A stretch of DNA of 24,984 nt from a virus. The notes beneath the pieces are model-generated. The model was not told where the DNA came from and did no database searches. It saw only the letters and a program-made list of their open reading frames with translations. Position 1 is the stretch's first letter, and each line of letters opens with the position of its first letter. The stretch spans positions 1 to 24,984 of the IMG/VR virus record IMGVR_UViG_3300000928_000628; one strand, written 5' to 3'. Positions 8,473-23,352 of the stretch are shown here, one piece after another. The translations under genes and the position numbers were made by a program.

Positions 8473-9159
8473 ATGAGTAAATTAAAAGATATGAAAAAAT
8501 ACAAAATATTAAATTTATACGCTTGTTTAGGTGGAAACAGATACAAATGGGATGATGTGAGTGATAATTTAGAAGTAACGGCCGTTGAATTAGATGCAGA
8601 ATTGGCCAGGTTATATCAAGAACGTTTCCCAAACGATAAAGTTATTGTATCAGATGCACATCAGTATTTATTGGAACATTACAAAGATTTTGATTTTATA
8701 TGGTCTTCACCGCCTTGCCCATCACATAGCAGAATAAGATTTGGACAGGCAAACAGTGAAAGAGAAAATTATAAACCTGTTTTTCCTGATATGACATTGT
8801 ACAGTGAAATCCTTTTTTTAGATAATTATTTTAGGGGTAAATATGTGGTTGAAAATGTAATACCTTTTTATGAGCCATTAATACCTGCAAAAAAAAGAGG
8901 CCGACATTTATATTGGACAAACTTTAATTTACCCAGTGATTTAAACGGCAGAAAAAATCCTAAAAACTTTATTGAATCAGGAAGTAAACCAAACGAATTG
9001 TTTCATGAAATAGATTTATCCACTTATAAAGGTGGGCAAAGAAAAGATAAAATTGCTTGTAATCTTGTAGATTTTGAAGTTGGTAAAACAATATTGCAAA
9101 CGGCATTTGGTATCAACACAAAACCAATAGGTAATCAGGTTTCAATTTTTGACAAATAG
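8473..9159 (+). CDS. DNA (cytosine-5) methyltransferase
   Basis: A 228-residue protein with the ordered motifs of C5-cytosine methyltransferases: motif I variant ILNLYACLGG (residues 12-21) for S-adenosylmethionine, an acidic residue near 39-41 (motif II), catalytic motif IV SSPPCPSHS with Cys82, motif VI VVENV (125-129), motif VIII RGRHLYW (142-148) and motif X GNQV (220-223). It would transfer a methyl group to cytosine in DNA, probably to protect phage DNA from host restriction. It is short for the family, with little room for a target-recognition domain. ATG at 8473 follows an A-rich leader; ATG at 8491 is an alternative. Codon use differs from neighbours: AGA for Arg and TCT, GCT and AGC appear here but are rare elsewhere, suggesting recent acquisition. 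Confidence 0.85.
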   Translation: MSKLKDMKKYKILNLYACLGGNRYKWDDVSDNLEVTAVELDAELARLYQERFPNDKVIVSDAHQYLLEHYKDFDFIWSSPPCPSHSRIRFGQANSERENYKPVFPDMTLYSEILFLDNYFRGKYVVENVIPFYEPLIPAKKRGRHLYWTNFNLPSDLNGRKNPKNFIESGSKPNELFHEIDLSTYKGGQRKDKIACNLVDFEVGKTILQTAFGINTKPIGNQVSIFDK

Positions 9160-9551: not shown

Positions 9552-10055
9552 ATGAATGATGAAACAAATATGCACGTGCATGTACCAACGGCAACACTGG
9601 CACAAATAAAACAGTATTTAAATGATAATTACAAAGATGGTTGTTATTGCCCTGCTTGTAATCAAAGGGTGCAAATGTACAAACGAAAATTGGCATCAAC
9701 AATGGCATATTGCCTGATCAAATTTGTGATGCATCAACGAGAAAATCAAAATCATTATTCAAAATTTACAGATATTTTAAATGCAGAAAACATCACACCA
9801 TCACAACGTGCAGATTGGCAAAAGTTGGTTTATTTTAGATTAATTCAACCGGATCCTGGTTTTGCAGGAATGTACAGAATCACACCACAGGGTTTTGATT
9901 TTGTGCAGGGCAATATATTAATGCCAAAATATGCAAACGTGTTAAATGGCAAAGTGTACGGTTATTCAATGGAACAAATACATATTAAAAAAGCATTATC
10001 AACAAAATTTAATTTACAAGAATTATTAAATATTGATACAAATGGGAAAAATTAA
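9552..10055 (+). CDS. Zinc-ribbon-like / winged-helix-like hypothetical protein
   Basis: A 167-residue protein. Residues 31-38 contain CYCPACNQ, a zinc-knuckle-like Cys cluster, followed by a basic stretch (QMYKRKLAS). Residues ~50-125 look like a winged-helix fold: helices, then FRLIQPDPGFAGMYRITPQG, a typical wing with a beta-turn. This suggests a DNA- or RNA-binding protein. Only three clustered Cys are present, so any zinc site would need a further ligand. It overlaps the following methyltransferase gene by 14 bases, which suggests linked translation and possibly linked function. Family not named; fold call is from pattern only. Confidence 0.6.
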   Translation: MNDETNMHVHVPTATLAQIKQYLNDNYKDGCYCPACNQRVQMYKRKLASTMAYCLIKFVMHQRENQNHYSKFTDILNAENITPSQRADWQKLVYFRLIQPDPGFAGMYRITPQGFDFVQGNILMPKYANVLNGKVYGYSMEQIHIKKALSTKFNLQELLNIDTNGKN

Positions 10056-10707
10056 AGTTTTAGAATTATTTGCAGGATCAAGAAGTATTGGAAAACAGGC
10101 AGAAAAAATGGGAATGCAGGTGTTTTCTGTTGATTGGGAAAATTATGAAAACATTGATTTGCAAATTGATATTGCACAAATGCAAACATTTGATGTGCCA
10201 TTTATACCTGATTTTATTTGGGCATCACCTGATTGTACAACATACAGTATTTCCGCAATATCACATCACCGCAACAAACAAATACCAACATCAGATTATG
10301 CCAAAAAATGTGATGATACCAATAAACATTTTATTTCATTAATAAAAAAATGGCAAACAATAAATCCAAATTTAATTTATTTTATTGAAAATCCACGTGG
10401 TATGTTACGGCACATGGATTGGATGCAGGAATTTAAAAGGCACACAGTATGGTATTGTAAATACGGTGATTCAAGGGCCAAACCAACGGATTTATTTACA
10501 AATTCTGATGATTGGATTCCGTTACCAGTGTGTAAAAATTACAAATATGATGCGGATGGAAATATAATTGATAAACATTGCCATCACGAATCCGCACGTA
10601 GGGGTGCAAAAACAGGAACGCAGGGAAAAAAGGGATCATATGACAGATCAAAAATACCTGATAAATTATGTATTTCAGTTTTAGAATCAATTAATTCAAA
10701 AAAATAA
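10042..10707 (+). CDS. C5-cytosine methyltransferase-like protein with a PDC active-site motif
   Basis: A 221-residue protein from ATG 10042; a TTG nine bases upstream is in frame but less likely. It has motif I VLELFAGSRSIG (residues 6-17), an Asp at 31 after a strand (SVDWE), a catalytic-position motif ASPDCTTYS with Cys65 (PDC where classical C5 enzymes have PPC), and IENPRG (115-120) in the place of ENV. The remainder, with a Cys/His-rich stretch near 168-190 (CKNYK, KHCHHES), may serve as target recognition. The family is widespread in phages and usually annotated as DNA cytosine methyltransferase. Activity is likely but not certain given the altered motifs. It is the last gene of this operon. 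Confidence 0.7.
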   Translation: MGKIKVLELFAGSRSIGKQAEKMGMQVFSVDWENYENIDLQIDIAQMQTFDVPFIPDFIWASPDCTTYSISAISHHRNKQIPTSDYAKKCDDTNKHFISLIKKWQTINPNLIYFIENPRGMLRHMDWMQEFKRHTVWYCKYGDSRAKPTDLFTNSDDWIPLPVCKNYKYDADGNIIDKHCHHESARRGAKTGTQGKKGSYDRSKIPDKLCISVLESINSKK

Positions 10708-11494: not shown

Positions 11495-12835
11495 ATGGTT
11501 ACAGAATTAACGCAAATTTATGGGCATTTATTTATCCATAATCAGGATGTAATAAACGAATATTACCCATTGATAAAACCTGAATGGAACATGTTGCAGA
11601 TTCACAAGGATTGGCATTTTGCAATTGGTGAATTAATTAAACAAAAACGTGCAGTTGATATTGTTACCGTTACTGATGTTTTGCGTGAAAACAATCGTTT
11701 ATCCAAAGATGCCATTTATCAAACATCATTGGCATCAACGGATGTGCCATACATACGCATTGCATCATTGATGAATACTGTAAATTTTCAATTTCAGATT
11801 AATGAAGTAAACAAATTTGCACGTGATTTTATACAAAAAATGGAATCACCTAATTTTTCACCTGATGATGTGATACAGTTATGTGATAAAACCAAATCAA
11901 TGTTATTGGATACAGGTGTAAAATCATATGAATCCAATGATCAGATAATTGATAATGTTATTTCACGGCACAATGATGCAAAAAACGGTGTTGAATTTGG
12001 TTTGCAGTTGGGTTGGAGTGGTACATACAATAAAATTATATTGGAAAATATTGATGTTATGGTTGTTGGTGGCAGGCCTGCAATGGGCAAAACTGCATGG
12101 TTGGTATCCTGTGCAAAACAGATTGCATTTGATCTAAATAAAAAAGTTTGTGTATTTTCATTGGAAATGAGCAATGCACAGATTATGAGGCGGATGTTGG
12201 CCACAATTACTGGGATTGATTCAAATAAAATAAAGTTGGGCCAATGTAATAATGATGAATTGGCAAAAATTTATGGTGTTAAAAACAGTGATGGTTGGAA
12301 AAACATAACGTTTGTTGATGGATCACAAAAGGTTTCAGATATTACACGTAAAATTACAGAATTAAAAAACACAACAGGTTTGGATGTTTACATGGTTGAT
12401 TATCTGCAAAAAATAATACCTGTAAAAACTGAAACACGGTACACAGAGGTTACACGTATATCAAATGATATAAAACGTTTAACAATGAGCATTGAAATAC
12501 CATGCATTGCAATGGCCCAATTATCACGTGATTCTGCAAAAACAGGTAAACGGCCATCATTGCCTGATTTAAAGGAATCAGGTGAAATTGAACAGGATGC
12601 ATCAGTTGTTGCATTTTTACACCGTGCAGAATATTACGGAGAAATGCAGGATGATCAGGGAATGAGTACAGAGGGAAAAGGAGAATTTTTAATTGCCAAA
12701 AATCGTGAGGGTGAAACAGGTATTGTGCCAATGATTGTTGAATTACCAACATCAACATGGGGTGATGATTTGAACATACCTGATTTTAATTACACACAAC
12801 CAGTTAATCAACACCTGGAACAAAACCCATTTTAA
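11495..12835 (+). CDS. dnaB: Replicative DNA helicase, DnaB-like
   Basis: A 446-residue protein with the two DnaB domains: an all-helical N-terminal domain (residues ~1-130) and a RecA-like C-terminal ATPase. Walker A is GGRPAMGKT (192-200), followed by the typical VCVFSLEMS segment (218-226); Walker B is VYMVDYLQ (298-305); AQLSRD (341-346) and SGEIEQDAS (362-370) are sensor motifs normal for DnaB. It would unwind the replication fork in 5'-3' direction as a hexamer. It begins 10 bases after the loader-like gene, in the leader-like sequence AAAACATAACAC, and is followed at once (no gap) by the NinG-like gene. Confidence 0.92.
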   Translation: MVTELTQIYGHLFIHNQDVINEYYPLIKPEWNMLQIHKDWHFAIGELIKQKRAVDIVTVTDVLRENNRLSKDAIYQTSLASTDVPYIRIASLMNTVNFQFQINEVNKFARDFIQKMESPNFSPDDVIQLCDKTKSMLLDTGVKSYESNDQIIDNVISRHNDAKNGVEFGLQLGWSGTYNKIILENIDVMVVGGRPAMGKTAWLVSCAKQIAFDLNKKVCVFSLEMSNAQIMRRMLATITGIDSNKIKLGQCNNDELAKIYGVKNSDGWKNITFVDGSQKVSDITRKITELKNTTGLDVYMVDYLQKIIPVKTETRYTEVTRISNDIKRLTMSIEIPCIAMAQLSRDSAKTGKRPSLPDLKESGEIEQDASVVAFLHRAEYYGEMQDDQGMSTEGKGEFLIAKNREGETGIVPMIVELPTSTWGDDLNIPDFNYTQPVNQHLEQNPF

Positions 12836-13396
12836 ATGAAACAAAAAAACAAAAAATGTAAAGTTTGCAAAGATGATTTTTATCCTGAAAATGATAAACA
12901 AATTGTTTGTGGATGGCAATGTGCATTGAAACATGCCAGTGTTAAGGGCCAAAAGGAAAAAAAACAAAAACAGATACAGGATAAAAAAGATACAAAGGCA
13001 AAACGGTTGGAATTAACCACACCAACAGAATGGAAAAACAAATTGCAAAAGTATTTTAATAAATTCATCAGGATCAGGGATGTAAAAAAAGGTTGTATAT
13101 CGTGCGGTACATCATTGGAAAACAGTAAATATGATGCAGGGCATTTTTGGGAAAAATCAAGGTATCCATTTTTGCGTTTCCATGAATCAAATTGTTTTGG
13201 GCAATGTGTACGTTGTAACAAACACAGGGGATCAAACGCACATGAATACCGTTTGAGGATAACGGAACGCATTACACCTGATCAATTAAAGTATTTGGAT
13301 GATCACAGAGGTGATAAACTGGTATTATCAGTTGATGAAATAAAACAAAAAATTGAATCATATAAACAAAAAATAAAACAATTACAGAGTAAATAA
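12836..13396 (+). CDS. ninG: NinG/Rap-like recombination nuclease
   Basis: A 186-residue protein with two zinc-binding regions: CKVC (8-11) with Cys25 and Cys29, and CISC (87-90), DAGHFWEKSRYPFLRFHE (100-117) and CFGQCVRCNKHRG (120-132). The DAGHF-R-FHE-N-QC-CN-H-G pattern is the signature of phage lambda NinG (Rap), a structure-specific endonuclease that acts on recombination joints. The middle (residues 35-60) is highly Lys-rich. ATG follows the helicase stop directly. The length is close to lambda NinG (about 200 residues). Function is by family; a role in resolving recombination intermediates with the annealing protein encoded next is likely. Confidence 0.85.
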   Translation: MKQKNKKCKVCKDDFYPENDKQIVCGWQCALKHASVKGQKEKKQKQIQDKKDTKAKRLELTTPTEWKNKLQKYFNKFIRIRDVKKGCISCGTSLENSKYDAGHFWEKSRYPFLRFHESNCFGQCVRCNKHRGSNAHEYRLRITERITPDQLKYLDDHRGDKLVLSVDEIKQKIESYKQKIKQLQSK

Positions 13397-13420
13397 ATTA
13401 AATTTACATTTTACACAAAT

Positions 13421-13436
13421 TTATTTTGTATATTTA
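13421..13436 (+). promoter_or_regulatory. Degenerate promoter before the recombination genes
   Basis: The 64-base gap before ATG 13461 holds TTATTTTG followed by TATATTTA, the latter one mismatch from TAnnTTTG, then a CATAAATCATAAATCATAAC leader like those of other early genes. The sequence TTTGTATATT here recurs at 18826. Confidence 0.4.
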
Positions 13437-13460
13437 CATAAATCATAAATCATAACAAAA

Positions 13461-14183
13461 ATGGAACAAACAAAACCTGCACGTAAAACACGTGCCACAA
13501 AAGAAAAACAACAACCGTTGTTTGCAAAATTATCTGCATTAAACGTTAATGCAAACACAGAAAAACGCAATAATTTCACATATTTATCATGGGCATGGGC
13601 ATGGAGTGAATTTAAAAAACATTGCCCTGATGCAAATTATGAAATCATCAAAGATCCTGAAACAAATAAACCGTACATGGTTGATCAGTTTGGTATTTTG
13701 GTGCAAACACGTGTAACAACAGGCGGTGAATCACATGATATGTGGTTGCCAGTAATGGATAATTCAAACAATGCACAAAAAAGTGATGAATACCAAATTA
13801 CATTCAGATCAGGTAAAAAAATTACTGTTGCACCTGCATCCATGATGGATATTAACAAAGCATTGATGCGTTGTTTGGTTAAAAATTTGGCAATGTTTGG
13901 ATTGGGCATTTATATTTATGCAGGTGAGGATTTGCCTGATGGATATGTTGCACCTGCACCTGATCCTGCACCTGAAAAACCAAAACCAAAGGTTGAAACA
14001 AAGAAAAAAATTACTGCAAAACGTTTTAATGATGCATTACAGGCCATCAAAAATGGTGCATACCATGAGGATGATTTGCGTAAAACGTTTGATTTAACGG
14101 TGCCACAGGAAAACACATTGGTTGATTTTCTGCAATCACAAATTGATCATGCCAATGAAATTAATAAAACTTTAAAACAATAA
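13461..14183 (+). CDS. Sak3/DUF1071-type single-strand annealing protein
   Basis: A 240-residue protein. Residues ~20-155 match the DUF1071 pattern: LSALNVN, FTYLSWAWAWSEFK, Y-MVDQFGILVQTRVT, LPVMDN, and DINKALMRCLVKNLAMFGLG followed by LYAGEDLP-like IYAGEDLP. DUF1071 proteins include Sak3, a phage single-strand annealing recombinase. A Pro-rich linker (APAPDPAPEKPKP, ~164-177) leads to a small helical domain (~182-240), perhaps for partner binding. Next to NinG-like, Gp157-like and single-strand-binding-like genes, a role in annealing-based recombination and genome-end processing is well supported. The assignment of DUF1071 to the Sak3 group is from memory of the literature. Confidence 0.8.
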   Translation: MEQTKPARKTRATKEKQQPLFAKLSALNVNANTEKRNNFTYLSWAWAWSEFKKHCPDANYEIIKDPETNKPYMVDQFGILVQTRVTTGGESHDMWLPVMDNSNNAQKSDEYQITFRSGKKITVAPASMMDINKALMRCLVKNLAMFGLGIYIYAGEDLPDGYVAPAPDPAPEKPKPKVETKKKITAKRFNDALQAIKNGAYHEDDLRKTFDLTVPQENTLVDFLQSQIDHANEINKTLKQ

Positions 14184-16511: not shown

Positions 16512-16958
16512 ATGGCAACAAATAAAAAAACAACATCAACAAATAAAAAACCTGTTAAACAAAAGGTGAAACGTGTTGCCAAAAAACCTACAAAATCCAA
16601 CACTATAAAAAAGAGGGCAATGATTGAGGCATTAATTGCATCACTGGGAATCATATCAACCGCATGCAGTTCAGTTGGTATAAACAGATCAACACATTAC
16701 GATTGGTACAACAATGATCCTGATTATGCGGAACAGGTAAATGATATTGCCGAACACGCACATGATATGGTTGAATCACAATTGCATGATCAAATCAGGG
16801 ATGGCAACACAACCGCAACAATATTTTACATGAAATGCAAAATGCGATCACGTGGATATGTTGAACGGCAGGATGTTAATTTACAAACCAACAGGCCTGA
16901 TTTATCTGCATTAACAACGGATGAAATACGTGAACACCTAAAAAATGGGAAAAAATAA
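16512..16958 (+). CDS. terS: Terminase small subunit
   Basis: A 148-residue protein with a Lys/Thr-rich N-terminal tail (residues 1-34), a helix-turn-helix DNA-binding region (~38-67, ACSSVGINRSTHYDWY), a helical oligomerisation segment (~70-95), and the ending DGNTTATIFYMKCKMRSRGYVERQ (split over residues 98-120), typical of small terminases of this group. It recognises phage DNA and hands it to the large subunit. Its 3' end overlaps the large-subunit start by 14 bases, which supports coupling. Family assignment is from pattern and neighbour. Confidence 0.85.
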   Translation: MATNKKTTSTNKKPVKQKVKRVAKKPTKSNTIKKRAMIEALIASLGIISTACSSVGINRSTHYDWYNNDPDYAEQVNDIAEHAHDMVESQLHDQIRDGNTTATIFYMKCKMRSRGYVERQDVNLQTNRPDLSALTTDEIREHLKNGKK

Positions 16959-18300
16959 AACAGATCTGATTGATTTGTACCTGTATTATGAATTGTGCAA
17001 ACGTGATTTTTGGCAATTTTGCATATTTTATGATGGTGAATTTTTTGCGGAACGTGAATTTTTACGTGAGGTTGCAGATGCAATGCAGGATATTACAGAT
17101 GATAAAATAAAATCATTATCTGTTTCAATGCCCCCACGTGCAGGAAAATCATATATCACATCAATTTATTGTGCGTGGGTACTGGGTAATCATCCAACGG
17201 AATCAGTAATGAGGAACACATGTACGGCAACACTGTACACAAAGTTTTCATATGATGTACGTGATATTGTGAAATCAGAAAAATTTGCCACAATATTTCC
17301 TGATGTATGTTTATCATCTGATAAAGCAAATTTGCAGGGATGGAACACCAACAAATCAAAACAGGTTGGTTATTTTGGTGCAGGTGTAGGTGGAACAATC
17401 ATTGGATTTGGTGCATCAAAGGTGGCCATTACTGATGATCTGTACAGGGGCATTGATGATGCAATGAATGATAATATGAATGCACGTGTGATACAATGGA
17501 AACAGGCAACACATGATTCACGTTTTGAAACAGGATGCAAACGCATTGATATTGGTACACGTTGGGTTGTAAATGATGTGATTGGTTACCAAATGGCGGA
17601 TGGTGCATATGATAAATCAATTATGGTCCAGGCATTGGATGAAAATGATGAATCCTTTTGCAGTGCAGTTATGAGTACCGCAGAATATATTGATAAAAGA
17701 AAAAAAACCGCAAAGGAAATTTGGTTGGCAGAATATCAACAACAACCAATGGATCTGAAAGGAATGTTATTTGGTGAAATAAATATTATTGATCCTGATG
17801 AATTTGATGAGGTTAAAAACAAAATTGAGGGTTGCATTGGATATGTTGATGTTTCAGATACAGGAAATGATTACACGGCATGTGCCATTGGGGCCATTGT
17901 AGGTGATCAGGTGTACATTGTTGATTACGTATTTGATAGGTCAAACACTGATGTTACAATACCAATGGTTGCATCCCTGTTGGATAAATGGCAGGCCAAT
18001 TATTGCCGTGTTGAATCAAACAGTATGGGTGCAATGTTTGCACGTGAATTACAACGTAATACCAAAACACGTGTGTTACAGGTGGCCAATACACAGAATA
18101 AAATTACACGGATCATTATGCAATCTGCATTTGTGTTAAATAAATTCAATTTTGTGCGTTATGATGTGCCACAATCAATCAGATTTATTGATAATATTTT
18201 ATCATTTAGTAAAGAGGGTAAAAATAAAAATGATGATGCACCTGATTGCATTGCAGGTTTATCAATGTTTATTCAATCATTGTTCAAACATTTACGTTAA
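16945..18300 (+). CDS. terL: Terminase large subunit
   Basis: A 451-residue packaging motor. The N-terminal ATPase has Walker A PPRAGKS (residues 63-69) in SMPPRAGKSYITS, and Walker B VAITDD (160-165). The C-terminal RNase-H-like nuclease has GYVDVSDTGNDY with Asp302, VESNS with Glu357, and NDDAPDCIAG with Asp431/Asp434, the usual triad positions. It cuts concatemers and pumps DNA through the portal. Unlike most HK97-like phages, the portal gene does not follow on the same strand; instead there is a short-RNA region, small genes, a PP-loop gene and then an inverted portal gene. Confidence 0.93.
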   Translation: MGKNKTDLIDLYLYYELCKRDFWQFCIFYDGEFFAEREFLREVADAMQDITDDKIKSLSVSMPPRAGKSYITSIYCAWVLGNHPTESVMRNTCTATLYTKFSYDVRDIVKSEKFATIFPDVCLSSDKANLQGWNTNKSKQVGYFGAGVGGTIIGFGASKVAITDDLYRGIDDAMNDNMNARVIQWKQATHDSRFETGCKRIDIGTRWVVNDVIGYQMADGAYDKSIMVQALDENDESFCSAVMSTAEYIDKRKKTAKEIWLAEYQQQPMDLKGMLFGEINIIDPDEFDEVKNKIEGCIGYVDVSDTGNDYTACAIGAIVGDQVYIVDYVFDRSNTDVTIPMVASLLDKWQANYCRVESNSMGAMFARELQRNTKTRVLQVANTQNKITRIIMQSAFVLNKFNFVRYDVPQSIRFIDNILSFSKEGKNKNDDAPDCIAGLSMFIQSLFKHLR

Positions 18301-18872: not shown

Positions 18873-19715
18873 ATGAAAACAGTAAACAGTTTGAGTGGTG
18901 GCAAAACATCATCATACATGGCCGTTCATTATCCATCAGATTACAATGTATTTTCATTGGTACGTACAGGTGATAAAAAATGTTTGTTTCCTGATGAAAA
19001 AATACGGCAGATTGTATCTGATAAAATTGGTTGTGAATTTATTGGTACATTGGAAATGGATGAAATAATTTACACAATGTTGGATTTAGAACAACACATT
19101 GGATCAAAAATTACATGGGTTACTGGCAAAACATTTGATGAAACAATTACATATAAATCAGAATATTTACCAAACAAAATTGCACGATATTGTACAACAG
19201 AATTAAAAACATTTCCAATAATAAAATGGATGTATGATGAAATTAAAAACCCTGTTTATATGCGTTTTGGATACAGGGCCAATGAATTGAGCCGTGCAAA
19301 TAATATGATGGCCAAAGTTAATGCAGATGGATTCACAGAGGTTAAAACAACGTTTGAAAAACATCCCAATGGCCAAAACAAATGGGTAACATTACCGTAC
19401 TGCAAACCACAATTTCCATTAATAAATGATCAAATATTTAAAGATAATATACATAATTATTGGAATCAAAATACCAATGTGCGTTTTGCATACATGAACA
19501 ATTGCGTGGGGTGTTGGTGGCGATCTGAATTATTATTGAAACATATGTTTGATAAACAACCAAACAAAATGGAATGGTTTGCAGAGCAGGAACGCAAACG
19601 CAAAGGCACATTTAAAACAGGTGTTAAATACGATCAGATTAAACAATACCATACACAACACAGATTGTTTGATGATGATTTTAACGAGTGTGATTCAGGT
19701 AATTGCGGTTTATAA
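18873..19715 (+). CDS. PAPS-reductase/PP-loop family protein
   Basis: A 280-residue protein starting with the PP-loop SGGKTSSYM (residues 8-16), which binds the phosphates of ATP or adenosine phosphosulfate. Later Cys positions include YCTTELKTFPI, NNCVGCWW and a C-terminal ECDSGNCG, which could hold a metal or iron-sulfur cluster. Phage members of this family are usually annotated as phosphoadenosine phosphosulfate reductases; relatives include DndC, which acts in DNA phosphorothioation. No dndA/B/D/E partner is seen here. It has its own leader and faces the inverted portal gene with only 10 bases between stops. A role in sulfur metabolism or nucleic-acid modification is open. Confidence 0.75.
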   Translation: MKTVNSLSGGKTSSYMAVHYPSDYNVFSLVRTGDKKCLFPDEKIRQIVSDKIGCEFIGTLEMDEIIYTMLDLEQHIGSKITWVTGKTFDETITYKSEYLPNKIARYCTTELKTFPIIKWMYDEIKNPVYMRFGYRANELSRANNMMAKVNADGFTEVKTTFEKHPNGQNKWVTLPYCKPQFPLINDQIFKDNIHNYWNQNTNVRFAYMNNCVGCWWRSELLLKHMFDKQPNKMEWFAEQERKRKGTFKTGVKYDQIKQYHTQHRLFDDDFNECDSGNCGL

Positions 19716-19719
19716 AACC
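19707..19719. terminator. Short hairpin between converging genes
   Basis: GGTTT-ATA-AAACC with T/A-rich flanks lies across the stop of the PP-loop gene and ahead of the portal stop on the other strand. Being symmetric, it could act as a weak two-way terminator. The same stem (GGTTT/AAACC) occurs at 18334. Confidence 0.35.
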
Positions 19720-19725
19720 AATTTA

Positions 19726-20937
19726 TTAATATCCAGTATTATTAATGCCTAACAATGCACGTTTTTCATCATCAGATAATTCAACACCTGATTCAATTAT
19801 TTTCAACACTGCATTTGCACGTTTATCCATTGCATCTGATTGCATAACCTGATCCTGTTGAAGTACCGCAACATGTGAAAAATCTGCACACAATTTCAAT
19901 CCCTGATCTGTGAGGCCTAATTGATGTGAAAGTGTTGCATATAATTGATCCGTTTCAGGTATAATTGTATCCTGGTAAGTCATTCGCATACCTTCAAAAA
20001 CATTGGTAAACGTTGCACCTTTTGTTGATGCAAACAGGTATTGGGATAAACCATACGCATCAATGATTGCCATTTTATCTGCATCAAGTTCCTCAAATAA
20101 CATCAGTTGTTTGGTTGGATAACTCATTGGTGTCCAATCAACATTTGATTCCGTAATTACAATTTGATCTGCATTACGTTTTATCCAATCCTTTTGTATT
20201 TGCCGTTTTTCCGCAGGATCCATTGGGAGTGATCCGCCCAAATCAGATTGATTTGATGATAAAATACCAATTGCAGATAAATTTTCCAATAACACATTAC
20301 GTTTTTTGTACTGTGCAATGATGTTTGATAATGGGTACCGCAGGGTTTCAATCCTGTTGCGTGGATTTACCAAATGGATACCATCAGGTGTATTGATGTA
20401 AACCATATCATCAATTTCAATTGTTTCATATTTTTTACCATCATAATAAAACTGATAATTTTCAATCATTCCGCCTGTTTCCATCTGATCCAAATAACGG
20501 CCTGAAAGTTTTAATTTAACTTTTGATGATGGCAATGGCACAATTAAATTACGTATATCAAATGAACGTTTTGGGCAATATGCAAATGCATTGGCAAACA
20601 ATCCATCATTTACTGAAAGCGAATATATAACATCAGACCATGATTGCGTTGGGTTTGGTTTGGCAATTAAATCCTGTACCCATTGATGATCATTAACAAT
20701 TTCACCATCTGAATTTTTTAATACTGGGATACCTGATGCCATCATTGATGCACGTTTATCAATCACTGTGCGTAATTCAGGCACCTGCAAATACAGTTCA
20801 AATGGTTTATTTGTATCAACCCAAACCGCATCCTTAACACCATAATAACTTTGTTTTGTGTTGTTCAGGTACTGCATGAATTTATCAGTGTTTTGGTTAG
20901 ACCATCCAAATATTGAAGTCCAAAAATCGTTTGCCAT
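19726..20937 (-). CDS. Phage portal protein (HK97-like), on the opposite strand
   Basis: A 403-residue protein with the typical portal layout: N-terminal FGW and Tyr-rich segment, then the conserved stretch PELRTVIDKRASMMASGIPV, a middle with DDMVYINTPDG, a helical stem (PLSNIIAQYKKRNVLLENLSAIGILSS), and a C-terminal helical region with NVFEGMRMTYQDTIIPE. Portals form the dodecameric ring through which TerL packs DNA. It is the only gene on the minus strand in the window and has a TAAATTTG box at 20963-20970 read leftwards, facing a rightward box for the protease gene. It keeps an intact frame and normal codons, so it is not a decayed copy. Confidence 0.88.
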   Translation of the reverse strand: MANDFWTSIFGWSNQNTDKFMQYLNNTKQSYYGVKDAVWVDTNKPFELYLQVPELRTVIDKRASMMASGIPVLKNSDGEIVNDHQWVQDLIAKPNPTQSWSDVIYSLSVNDGLFANAFAYCPKRSFDIRNLIVPLPSSKVKLKLSGRYLDQMETGGMIENYQFYYDGKKYETIEIDDMVYINTPDGIHLVNPRNRIETLRYPLSNIIAQYKKRNVLLENLSAIGILSSNQSDLGGSLPMDPAEKRQIQKDWIKRNADQIVITESNVDWTPMSYPTKQLMLFEELDADKMAIIDAYGLSQYLFASTKGATFTNVFEGMRMTYQDTIIPETDQLYATLSHQLGLTDQGLKLCADFSHVAVLQQDQVMQSDAMDKRANAVLKIIESGVELSDDEKRALLGINNTGY

Positions 20938-20962
20938 GATGTTTTTTTTTAATATATTTGAA

Positions 20963-20970
20963 CAAATTTA
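20963..20970 (-). promoter_or_regulatory. Leftward promoter -7 box for the portal gene
   Basis: Read on the minus strand this is TAAATTTG, exact to TAnnTTTG, 25 bases before the portal ATG, with an A-rich leader. Confidence 0.6.
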
Positions 20971-20985
20971 ACTAATTTTGTTATA

Positions 20986-20993
20986 TAAATTTG
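20986..20993 (+). promoter_or_regulatory. Rightward promoter -7 box for the protease/capsid genes
   Basis: TAAATTTG, exact to TAnnTTTG, ends seven bases before ATG 21001, implying a very short or absent leader. It forms a divergent pair with the box at 20963. A further TATATTTG (20953-20960) lies upstream on the plus strand. Confidence 0.55.
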
Positions 20994-21000
20994 CATAATT

Positions 21001-22080
21001 ATGGAAAAACCATTTTCAACGTACAACATAAAACAGGCAACAACACAGATAAAAGATATTGATTTGTCTGCACGTGAGGTGGCAATTTATTTATCAGTGT
21101 TTGATACAATTGATTCTGATAATGATCTAATTCGCAAAGGTGCATTTAAAAAATCGTTGAATGATAGGGGTGTTAATTCAGGATCCAACAGGCAAATTGC
21201 ATTTTTACGGCACCATGATTGGGAACACCAAATTGGAAAATTTACATCATTACAAGAGGATGAAACAGGTTTGTTTGCCGTTGGTAAATTGGGTACATCA
21301 TCAAAGGGTGATGATGCATTGCGTGATTACCAGGATGGAATTATTACGGAACACAGTATTGGATTTCAATACATTGCAGATAAAACAAACTTTGTTGAGG
21401 TTGAAAAAAAGGATGCGGATGATCCTGATGCATCAACAGGATATTTTGAAATAAAGGAATTAAAATTGTGGGAAGGATCCGCAGTAACATTTGGTGCAAA
21501 CCAATATGCAAACACAATTGATGTGTTTAAAACATTACAGGAAAAACAAACAATACAAAAATCATTATCTGATCAGATGAATATAATTGTGAAAGCCATT
21601 ACCAGTGGTAAGGGAACAGATGAACGTTTATATGATTTGGAAATGAAATTAAAATATTTAAATGCACGTTTAATTGATGTGGCAAACACCGATCCGTTCA
21701 ACAAAGAACAATTGGCCGTTAAAGATTCACCAATTATTCACACATTTAATTGGAGTGGATTTGATGATTATTTTCACACCAAAGAAACATTTAATGATTA
21801 CCCACAACAGGCGGTAAATAATGCCAAAAAAGGGATTGAATTAAATGGTGCAGTTGGTAACAAATGTGCAACCAGTGTTGGAAAACAGAGGGCCACAGAT
21901 ATTGTGGCAAAACGTGGTTTTTCATTGGATGTATTAAAACGTGTTTATGCTTATTTAAGTAGGGCAAAAACATATTATGATGCCAATGATACAAAAGCAT
22001 GTGGCACAATTTCATATTTATTATGGGGCGGTGAGGCAATGCGTGTTTGGAGTGAAAAAAAATTAAATGATCTTAATTAA
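21001..22080 (+). CDS. Prohead protease with an extra C-terminal domain
   Basis: A 359-residue protein. Residues 1-~175 are an HK97-type (U35) prohead protease: AIYLSVFDTIDSDNDLIRKGAF, catalytic His in FLRHHDW (His71/72), GLFAVGKLGTS, catalytic Ser in ITEHSIGF (Ser119), and KLWEGSAVTFGAN. It would trim the scaffold and capsid protein during maturation. Residues ~245-359 are a second domain: YPQQAVNNAKKG, then GNKCATSVGKQRA, FSLDVLKRVYAYLSRAKTY and YLLWGGEAMRVWSEKKL. This module is absent from HK97 gp4-type proteases; a similar module is, from memory, found alone or fused to other phage proteins. Its role is unknown; a DNA- or scaffold-binding job is possible. The gene comes directly before the capsid gene. 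Confidence 0.88.
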   Translation: MEKPFSTYNIKQATTQIKDIDLSAREVAIYLSVFDTIDSDNDLIRKGAFKKSLNDRGVNSGSNRQIAFLRHHDWEHQIGKFTSLQEDETGLFAVGKLGTSSKGDDALRDYQDGIITEHSIGFQYIADKTNFVEVEKKDADDPDASTGYFEIKELKLWEGSAVTFGANQYANTIDVFKTLQEKQTIQKSLSDQMNIIVKAITSGKGTDERLYDLEMKLKYLNARLIDVANTDPFNKEQLAVKDSPIIHTFNWSGFDDYFHTKETFNDYPQQAVNNAKKGIELNGAVGNKCATSVGKQRATDIVAKRGFSLDVLKRVYAYLSRAKTYYDANDTKACGTISYLLWGGEAMRVWSEKKLNDLN

Positions 22081-22113: not shown

Positions 22114-23352
22114 ATGGAAAATACACCATTAACACCTGAACAGGTGATTGAAAAATTTGAGGCAAAAATTGCTGAAAAAACAAACGGTTTTGCATCATCA
22201 AATGATGTTGAAACATTAAAATCTGAATTATCAAATGAATTGGATGCATTAAAATCTGCAAACAAATCAGATGAATTACAGAAAAAATTTGCAGATCTTG
22301 AAAGTTCAATAAATGCAATAAAAGAAAACAACAAAACAAATGCACCTGTTGCAACAAAATCAATCAAAGATATGATTGTTGAAAAAGCAGATGCATTAAA
22401 AAATCTGATCAAACAAAAATCAGGTGTTGTTTCATTAACACTAAAAGCACAAATTGATCCAATCAATTTGGGTGCATTACGTGGTGATGTTTATGGGCAA
22501 TTGATCAATGAAACATTTGATATTCCTTACAGATCAGAAACGAGAATCACCGATTTGTTCAGAAAAACAAACGTTGATACAGAGTACATCAAGTACAGAG
22601 AGCAAAAAAGTGTAACAAGGGATGCAGGTGTGGTTGTAAATTGTGCAACAAATAACACTGATACAACAGTTGTATGGCAAACCAAAACTGTACAGATTGC
22701 AAAAGTTCGTGATTATGTTGATGTTTGTATTGATATGATGGATGATTACAGTTTTGTAACATCAGAAATTGAAAACCTTGTATCATCATCAATCAGATTA
22801 AAGGCAGACAGTGCGGTTTTAAACGGAACAACAGATATTGTTTCCATTGATTCAATCAGTTCTGTATTCAATCCTGCAAACGTATTGGCACCATTCACTG
22901 GGGCATTTACATCTGCAACATTAGCAGAATTAACAGGGGCAATGAAAGCACAGATTTATACATTTGGGCAGGAAATGGCATATGATGCAGATACAATCAT
23001 TATGAATTACAATGATTGGGTTAAATTCATGCACCAAAAAAATGCAAACGGTGATTACCTTTTACCAAACTTTGTGGCATCAGGTGATTCAGTATTGAAC
23101 GGAATGCGTGTGATTACATCACCATTGGTTTCACCAAATTCATTGTATGTTTTGGATTCAAGAAAGGGCCAAATATTAGACAGACAAGGAGTAACGGTTG
23201 ATTTCAGTTATGAAAACAATGATAATTTTGAACACGAAATTGTTACTGTTAAAGCATTACAGAGAATCCAATTTTTTGTTCCATTAGTGCATCAGGATGC
23301 ATTTATGAAATGTACTGATATTGCAGGTGCATTGACTGAATTGACAAAATAA
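22114..23352 (+). CDS. Major capsid protein (HK97-like)
   Basis: A 412-residue protein. Residues ~1-110 are helical, charged coiled coil (TLKSELSNELDALKSANKSD region), fitting an N-terminal scaffolding delta domain that the prohead protease removes. From ~118 on, the HK97-like shell region begins (GALRGDVYGQLINETFDIPY), with a G-rich mid part and the ending QRIQFFVPLVHQDAFMK. It starts 33 bases after the protease gene in an A-rich leader (AAAAACTAAAAAAAATGG). Codons here include more AGA and TTC than neighbours, as often seen in highly expressed genes. It would form the icosahedral head. Confidence 0.88.
   Translation: MENTPLTPEQVIEKFEAKIAEKTNGFASSNDVETLKSELSNELDALKSANKSDELQKKFADLESSINAIKENNKTNAPVATKSIKDMIVEKADALKNLIKQKSGVVSLTLKAQIDPINLGALRGDVYGQLINETFDIPYRSETRITDLFRKTNVDTEYIKYREQKSVTRDAGVVVNCATNNTDTTVVWQTKTVQIAKVRDYVDVCIDMMDDYSFVTSEIENLVSSSIRLKADSAVLNGTTDIVSIDSISSVFNPANVLAPFTGAFTSATLAELTGAMKAQIYTFGQEMAYDADTIIMNYNDWVKFMHQKNANGDYLLPNFVASGDSVLNGMRVITSPLVSPNSLYVLDSRKGQILDRQGVTVDFSYENNDNFEHEIVTVKALQRIQFFVPLVHQDAFMKCTDIAGALTELTK

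Follow-up and report, generated by a model that had tools for sequence, protein, structure and literature searches.

The stretch of DNA analysed here (the window) is a linear fragment of a viral contig, 24984 bases in length, which encodes together the HK97-type gene set of an HK97-family portal, an S78 protease and an HK97-fold capsid (Table 1). The order terL (terminase large subunit), portal, protease, capsid is retained, with a PP-loop cargo gene as the sole interruption. Few traits of tailed phages are as conserved as the order of the packaging and head genes and their location on one strand, and both serve in annotating these phages. A single strand is usual for an HK97-type module, although not strictly defining, and this is not the situation in the window, where, of the main packaging and head genes, the portal alone lies on the minus strand. 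As the original prediction had stated, the portal is intact, reads leftwards among plus-strand neighbours and meets the PP-loop gene tail to tail. Its ORF encodes 403 amino acids, and its stop at 19726 is separated by 10 bp from that of the PP-loop gene at 19715. On its other side a divergent gap of 63 bp (20938–21000) separates it from the protease. The NCBIfam model portal_HK97 matches the gene with E 2.6e-12, but under the curated cut-off, and the portal profile weakly matches the HK97-family portal Rcc01684 (6tba).

Table 1. Genes and sequence features of the head module and of the portal–protease gap in the window.
Feature	Coordinates	Strand	Evidence or remark
terL (terminase large subunit)	16945–18300	+	Pfam Terminase_6C, T7 RNaseH-like; phrog_38 E 2.8e-73
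PP-loop/PAPS-reductase-like cargo gene in the terL–portal slot	18873–19715	+	phrog_424 E 2.2e-24
Convergent junction between PP-loop and portal stops, 10 bp	19716–19725		Sequence
HK97-type portal, inverted	19726–20937	-	Pfam Phage_portal E 9.5e-26; PHROG portal families
HK97-type prohead protease (S78)	21001–22080	+	Pfam Peptidase_S78 E 4.3e-19; NCBIfam proheadase_HK97 above cut-off
HK97-fold major capsid protein	22114–23352	+	Pfam Phage_capsid E 7.1e-18; NCBIfam major_cap_HK97 above cut-off
18-bp back-to-back promoter-like element, CAAATTTA-AC-TAATTTTG (= CAAATTTAACTAATTTTG)	20963–20980		Only such site in the window
Portal-side -7 box, TAAATTTG	20963–20970	-	Kept down to 72% portal identity
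Protease-side -7 box, TAATTTTG	20973–20980	+	Equivalent protease-strand box in 33 of 41 antiparallel gaps
Additional TAAATTTG box of the original prediction	20986–20993	+	Lineage-specific

The portal has dN/dS values of 0.07 against relative L003 and 0.13 against L012, close to those of terL and the protease, which indicates that it is under strong purifying selection; we reject on these values the idea of a non-functional relic. Its third-position GC skew, taken on its own coding strand, is 0.31 and similar to that of the plus-strand genes. A recent inversion is rejected as well, since the skew agrees with the strand on which the portal is now encoded and the composition carries no trace of a recent flip. 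Taken together, selection and skew indicate an old inversion and a functional gene.

Comparison of gene order in relatives, which the original prediction had proposed, began from an IMG/VR scan with the portal that returned 17 other loci at 57–98% portal identity; in all 17 the portal is opposite to terL, protease and capsid. Scans of IMG/VR with portal, capsid and terL alignments gave a set of 320 loci, in which gene orientation was surveyed by HMM, and this wider survey agrees. The orientations of terL, protease and capsid match one another in every one of the 320 loci and the portal alone varies. The antiparallel arrangement recurs in many contigs, at 52–98% portal identity. When portals were clustered at 93% identity, 45 of the 84 clusters were antiparallel, 39 were co-directional and none was mixed. 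Counted as distinct portal sequences there are about 80 antiparallel and 119 co-directional, figures that depend on the queries and in which partial portals may count twice. As the window is a linear piece of one contig, an assembly artefact of a single metagenome might be suspected, but the same arrangement in many contigs of diverged sequence from other metagenomes refutes this, and we give it practically no credence. A few of the retrieved loci have peculiarities of their own. The portal, the protease and the homologue of gene 24260 are split over two frames in L016 (2329–3511), L036 (1580–2671) and L002 (4022–4694), respectively, by sequencing error or a real frameshift. In L090 (917–4522) the order is rearranged and the capsid lies beyond the homologues of genes 23748 and 24260, away from the protease.

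Among distant relatives the portal is co-directional, as seen in fecal contigs and in Freya and Danklef (Polaribacter phages, Forsetiviridae) and phi19:1 (Cellulophaga phage, Assiduviridae). These three phages have the same gene set in the same order, and an HK97-family portal, an S78-type protease and an HK97-fold capsid are common to them and the window. Their portals are about 24–27% identical to that of the window and, unlike it, share the strand of the other module genes. A search of bacterial genomes for relatives found none. The host of this large group of uncultured viruses is probably a member of the Bacteroidota, judging from the TAnnTTTG box described below and from relatives among phages of Polaribacter, Cellulophaga and Flavobacterium. 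A search of the literature in open-licence papers found no report of an inverted portal in an HK97-type module, which is weak evidence of novelty.

We then considered how the orientation has changed. On the portal tree the orientation label needs five changes, as against 28 in shuffles. A more careful portal tree, with distant rows left out, needs two, and none of 200 bootstrap trees needs just one. A single co-directional clade is rejected by the AU test for both portal (p 8e-5) and capsid (p 1e-29). In both trees the co-directional L027 and the co-directional pair L122 and L149 are nested in an otherwise antiparallel clade. The trees thus require the orientation to have changed two or more times within the family, a repeated change that the original prediction did not foresee. 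Since the distant relatives are co-directional and L027, L122 and L149 are nested as described, the simplest reading is one inversion followed by at least one reversal. The inversion and its history are well supported by the sequence comparisons. The original suggestion of an old inversion that became fixed is borne out by the deep sharing of the arrangement, by purifying selection and by a coding-strand composition like that of the plus-strand genes. Further out, L157 is antiparallel and L158 co-directional; they are distant relatives with about 63% capsid identity. The portal–protease gap of L157 is 356 bp and holds a long hairpin-like inverted repeat, without the symmetric element described below. 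This single distant contig, on long branches, looks like a separate inversion.

The terL tree places the window, with L027, L122 and L149, among co-directional phages, whereas the portal, protease and capsid trees place it among antiparallel ones. This difference shows that lineages have exchanged terL and the portal–protease–capsid block. Among relatives the terL–portal slot holds from 0 to 3.7 kb of cargo, and the PP-loop gene is missing or replaced in many of them. The orientation could have changed by recombinational replacement of the block, or of the portal, from a relative rather than by inversion in place; the conflict between the terL and head-module trees over the placement of the window and the readiness of the slot to take up cargo both speak for this idea. 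A single clade of all co-directional portals, which would speak against replacement, is what the AU test rejects. Exchange can spread orientations, however, but does not create them. Moreover, L027, L122 and L149 are co-directional within otherwise antiparallel portal and capsid clades, so that it is with respect to its own protease and capsid that the portal has turned. We consider replacement an unlikely origin of the change. The genes in the slot are nearly all on the terL strand, which argues that the portal alone was turned.

A programmed invertible segment carrying the portal, with each contig representing one of two states, would also account for the existence of both orientations in the family, and the portals of L122 and L149 are indeed flanked by two similar TAnnTTTG-bearing stretches. 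Phase variation of this kind is nevertheless very improbable. The lack of mixed clusters at 93% portal identity means that flips are rare, orientation is strongly clustered on the tree, and the portal of the window is not bordered by long inverted repeats. In L122 and L149 the stretch that precedes the portal is nearly identical to that preceding the protease, and these promoter-like copies could have served as recombination points.

The two arrangements also differ in spacing. In antiparallel loci the portal–protease gap is mostly 52–71 bp (median 63) and, where there is no cargo, a 4-bp overlap of the terL and portal stops is frequent. The terL–portal gap of co-directional loci is about 27 bp and their portal–protease gap about 2 bp. 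Of the 41 antiparallel gaps, 31 contain the motif TAnnTTTG on the portal strand and 33 contain it on the protease strand, against an expectation of about 3–4. The two copies stand back to back. The strict form CAAAnnTA-NN-TAnnTTTG is present in 19 of the 41 antiparallel gaps (expected 0.01) and in none of the 39 co-directional loci. The relaxed form, AAAnnTAnnTAnnTTT, is present in 34 of 41 (expected 0.3–0.5) and in one of 39. The element thus goes with the antiparallel state. Across the retrieved loci there are 20 distinct strict sites, and all of them are in the portal–protease gap (16 flagged as such; those of L035, L066, L070 and L071 by their coordinates). The boxes are separated by 2 bp in 19 cases and by 1 bp in one, with no other spacing. 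Even the relaxed form is missing from seven of the 41 gaps, and in some clades the boxes lack the final G. Of the 39 co-directional loci, 31 have a single TAnnTTTG immediately ahead of the portal.

The original prediction had described the gap in the window as holding a promoter pair, with one TAAATTTG box on each strand. Both boxes are present and the minus-strand box is conserved. The plus-strand box (20986–20993) is kept in relatives of more than 95% identity and lost in L012 and L013 (relatives at 72–87% portal identity); the conserved partner is TAATTTTG. The lineage-specific box would give a nearly leaderless transcript and was rejected as the main protease promoter for its limited distribution. 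Another plus-strand candidate, a -33-like TTTG at 20930 with TATATTTG at 20953–20960, was also rejected: the TTTG is portal coding sequence and TATATTTG becomes GATATTTG in relatives such as L003. Over the whole window the frequency of TAnnTTTG is not above chance. In the intergenic DNA of the window TAAATTTG occurs five times on the plus and twice on the minus strand, with about 0.11 expected per strand. The second minus-strand copy is at 13416–13423, in the gap 13397–13460, and no gene reading leftwards from it was identified.

The sigma-A consensus mapped in Flavobacterium psychrophilum is TAnnTTTG, from -12 to -5 (PMC9723704). Both halves of the conserved element match the -7 consensus of this map and lie at a promoter-like distance from their start codons. 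Positioned by the F. psychrophilum rule, the portal start is predicted at about 20957–20958, with a leader of about 21 nt, and the protease start at about 20985, with a leader of about 16 nt. The two central bases of the element are variable among the loci; A/T is over-represented at symmetric positions consistent with the predicted starts, A on the side of the portal and T at its mirror position. No TTTG was found at 18–22 bp spacing from either conserved box, and the window differs from the mapped promoters in having no clear -33 TTTG/TTG element. In general the -33 element of Bacteroidota sigma-A promoters is weakly conserved.

The symmetry of the element calls for another explanation to be weighed, namely that a dimeric regulator, of phage or host, binds the palindrome as its operator and so controls two ordinary divergent promoters. 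The dyad is perfect in L033 and the symmetry continues into mirrored T/A runs outside the core. Against this, each half is itself a sigma-A -7 consensus suitably placed, isolated halves are found both in other intergenic regions of the window and ahead of co-directional portals, and the retrieved loci contain no further strict site. The symmetric form would be expected before co-directional portals too if it bound a regulator, yet only the portal-pointing half is kept there, and the nn positions fit dyad symmetry in just 18 of 34 sites. These last two observations lead us to favour two boxes; the operator seems to us improbable, somewhat more so than replacement.

We infer that the 18-bp element acts as a promoter for the host RNA polymerase, most likely a divergent one that would have kept both the portal and the protease–capsid genes expressed after the flip. 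In the explanation that we prefer, the portal of an HK97-type head module would have been inverted in place, alone, in the ancestor of a large group, and later turned back in some lineages. Two sigma-A -7 boxes, back to back and 2 bp apart, would then form a compact divergent promoter between portal and protease. From the minus-strand box a leftward transcript of the portal alone would arise, and from the plus-strand box a rightward protease–capsid transcript, in place of the read-through expected in co-directional relatives. We consider it probable that inversion of the lone portal in place, with later reversals, was kept workable by a divergent sigma-A promoter in this way. The original idea that the portal has its own expression holds in that a promoter-like box is present; such expression would not be a consequence of the inversion, since most co-directional portals also have the upstream motif.

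The boxes are so near each other that polymerase could scarcely occupy both, and two polymerases would be unlikely to sit there simultaneously; the relative strength of the halves could then set portal against capsid output. In bidirectional promoters of E. coli such competition occurs only at high activity (PMC12825309), so that for the window we can only infer it. A separation of portal dosage from capsid dosage, as originally proposed, is possible. More tentatively, and less likely than not in our view, the portal may be an autonomous flippable transcription unit, with the symmetric promoter and polymerase competition setting how much portal (12 copies per virion) is made relative to capsid (hundreds). 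If this were true, a gene could turn without loss of expression on either side and an 18-bp site would control head stoichiometry.

The bidirectional promoters of E. coli and Salmonella are likewise short and pseudo-symmetric, with elements on both strands, and in them, as in the window element, polymerase could bind either way (PMC10268837, PMC12825309). They share a -10 element; most of their starts are separated by 18 bp, and separations of 7–25 bp count as bidirectional. The window element has two complete and separate -7 boxes and predicted starts about 27 bp apart, and so falls outside that definition; it may work like a bidirectional promoter despite its separate boxes. Unlike those promoters, both transcripts would be mRNAs of virion genes.

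The group breaks the common-strand rule for one essential gene and mends it at least once, which shows that heads can be assembled without a shared strand. Through the conserved back-to-back element, the way in which phages set the level of portal against capsid could be tested directly at the bench. In viruses of this kind, annotation based on operons can overlook the portal or give it a wrong label.

Elsewhere in the window, a gene resembling C-5 cytosine DNA methylases (Pfam E 3.4e-7) and a second methylase-like gene, with similar motifs by eye and no Pfam match, account for 8473–9159 and 10033–10707. Genes for a DnaB-like helicase, NinG and a Sak single-strand annealing protein follow in a row at 11495–14183 and form a replication and recombination block.
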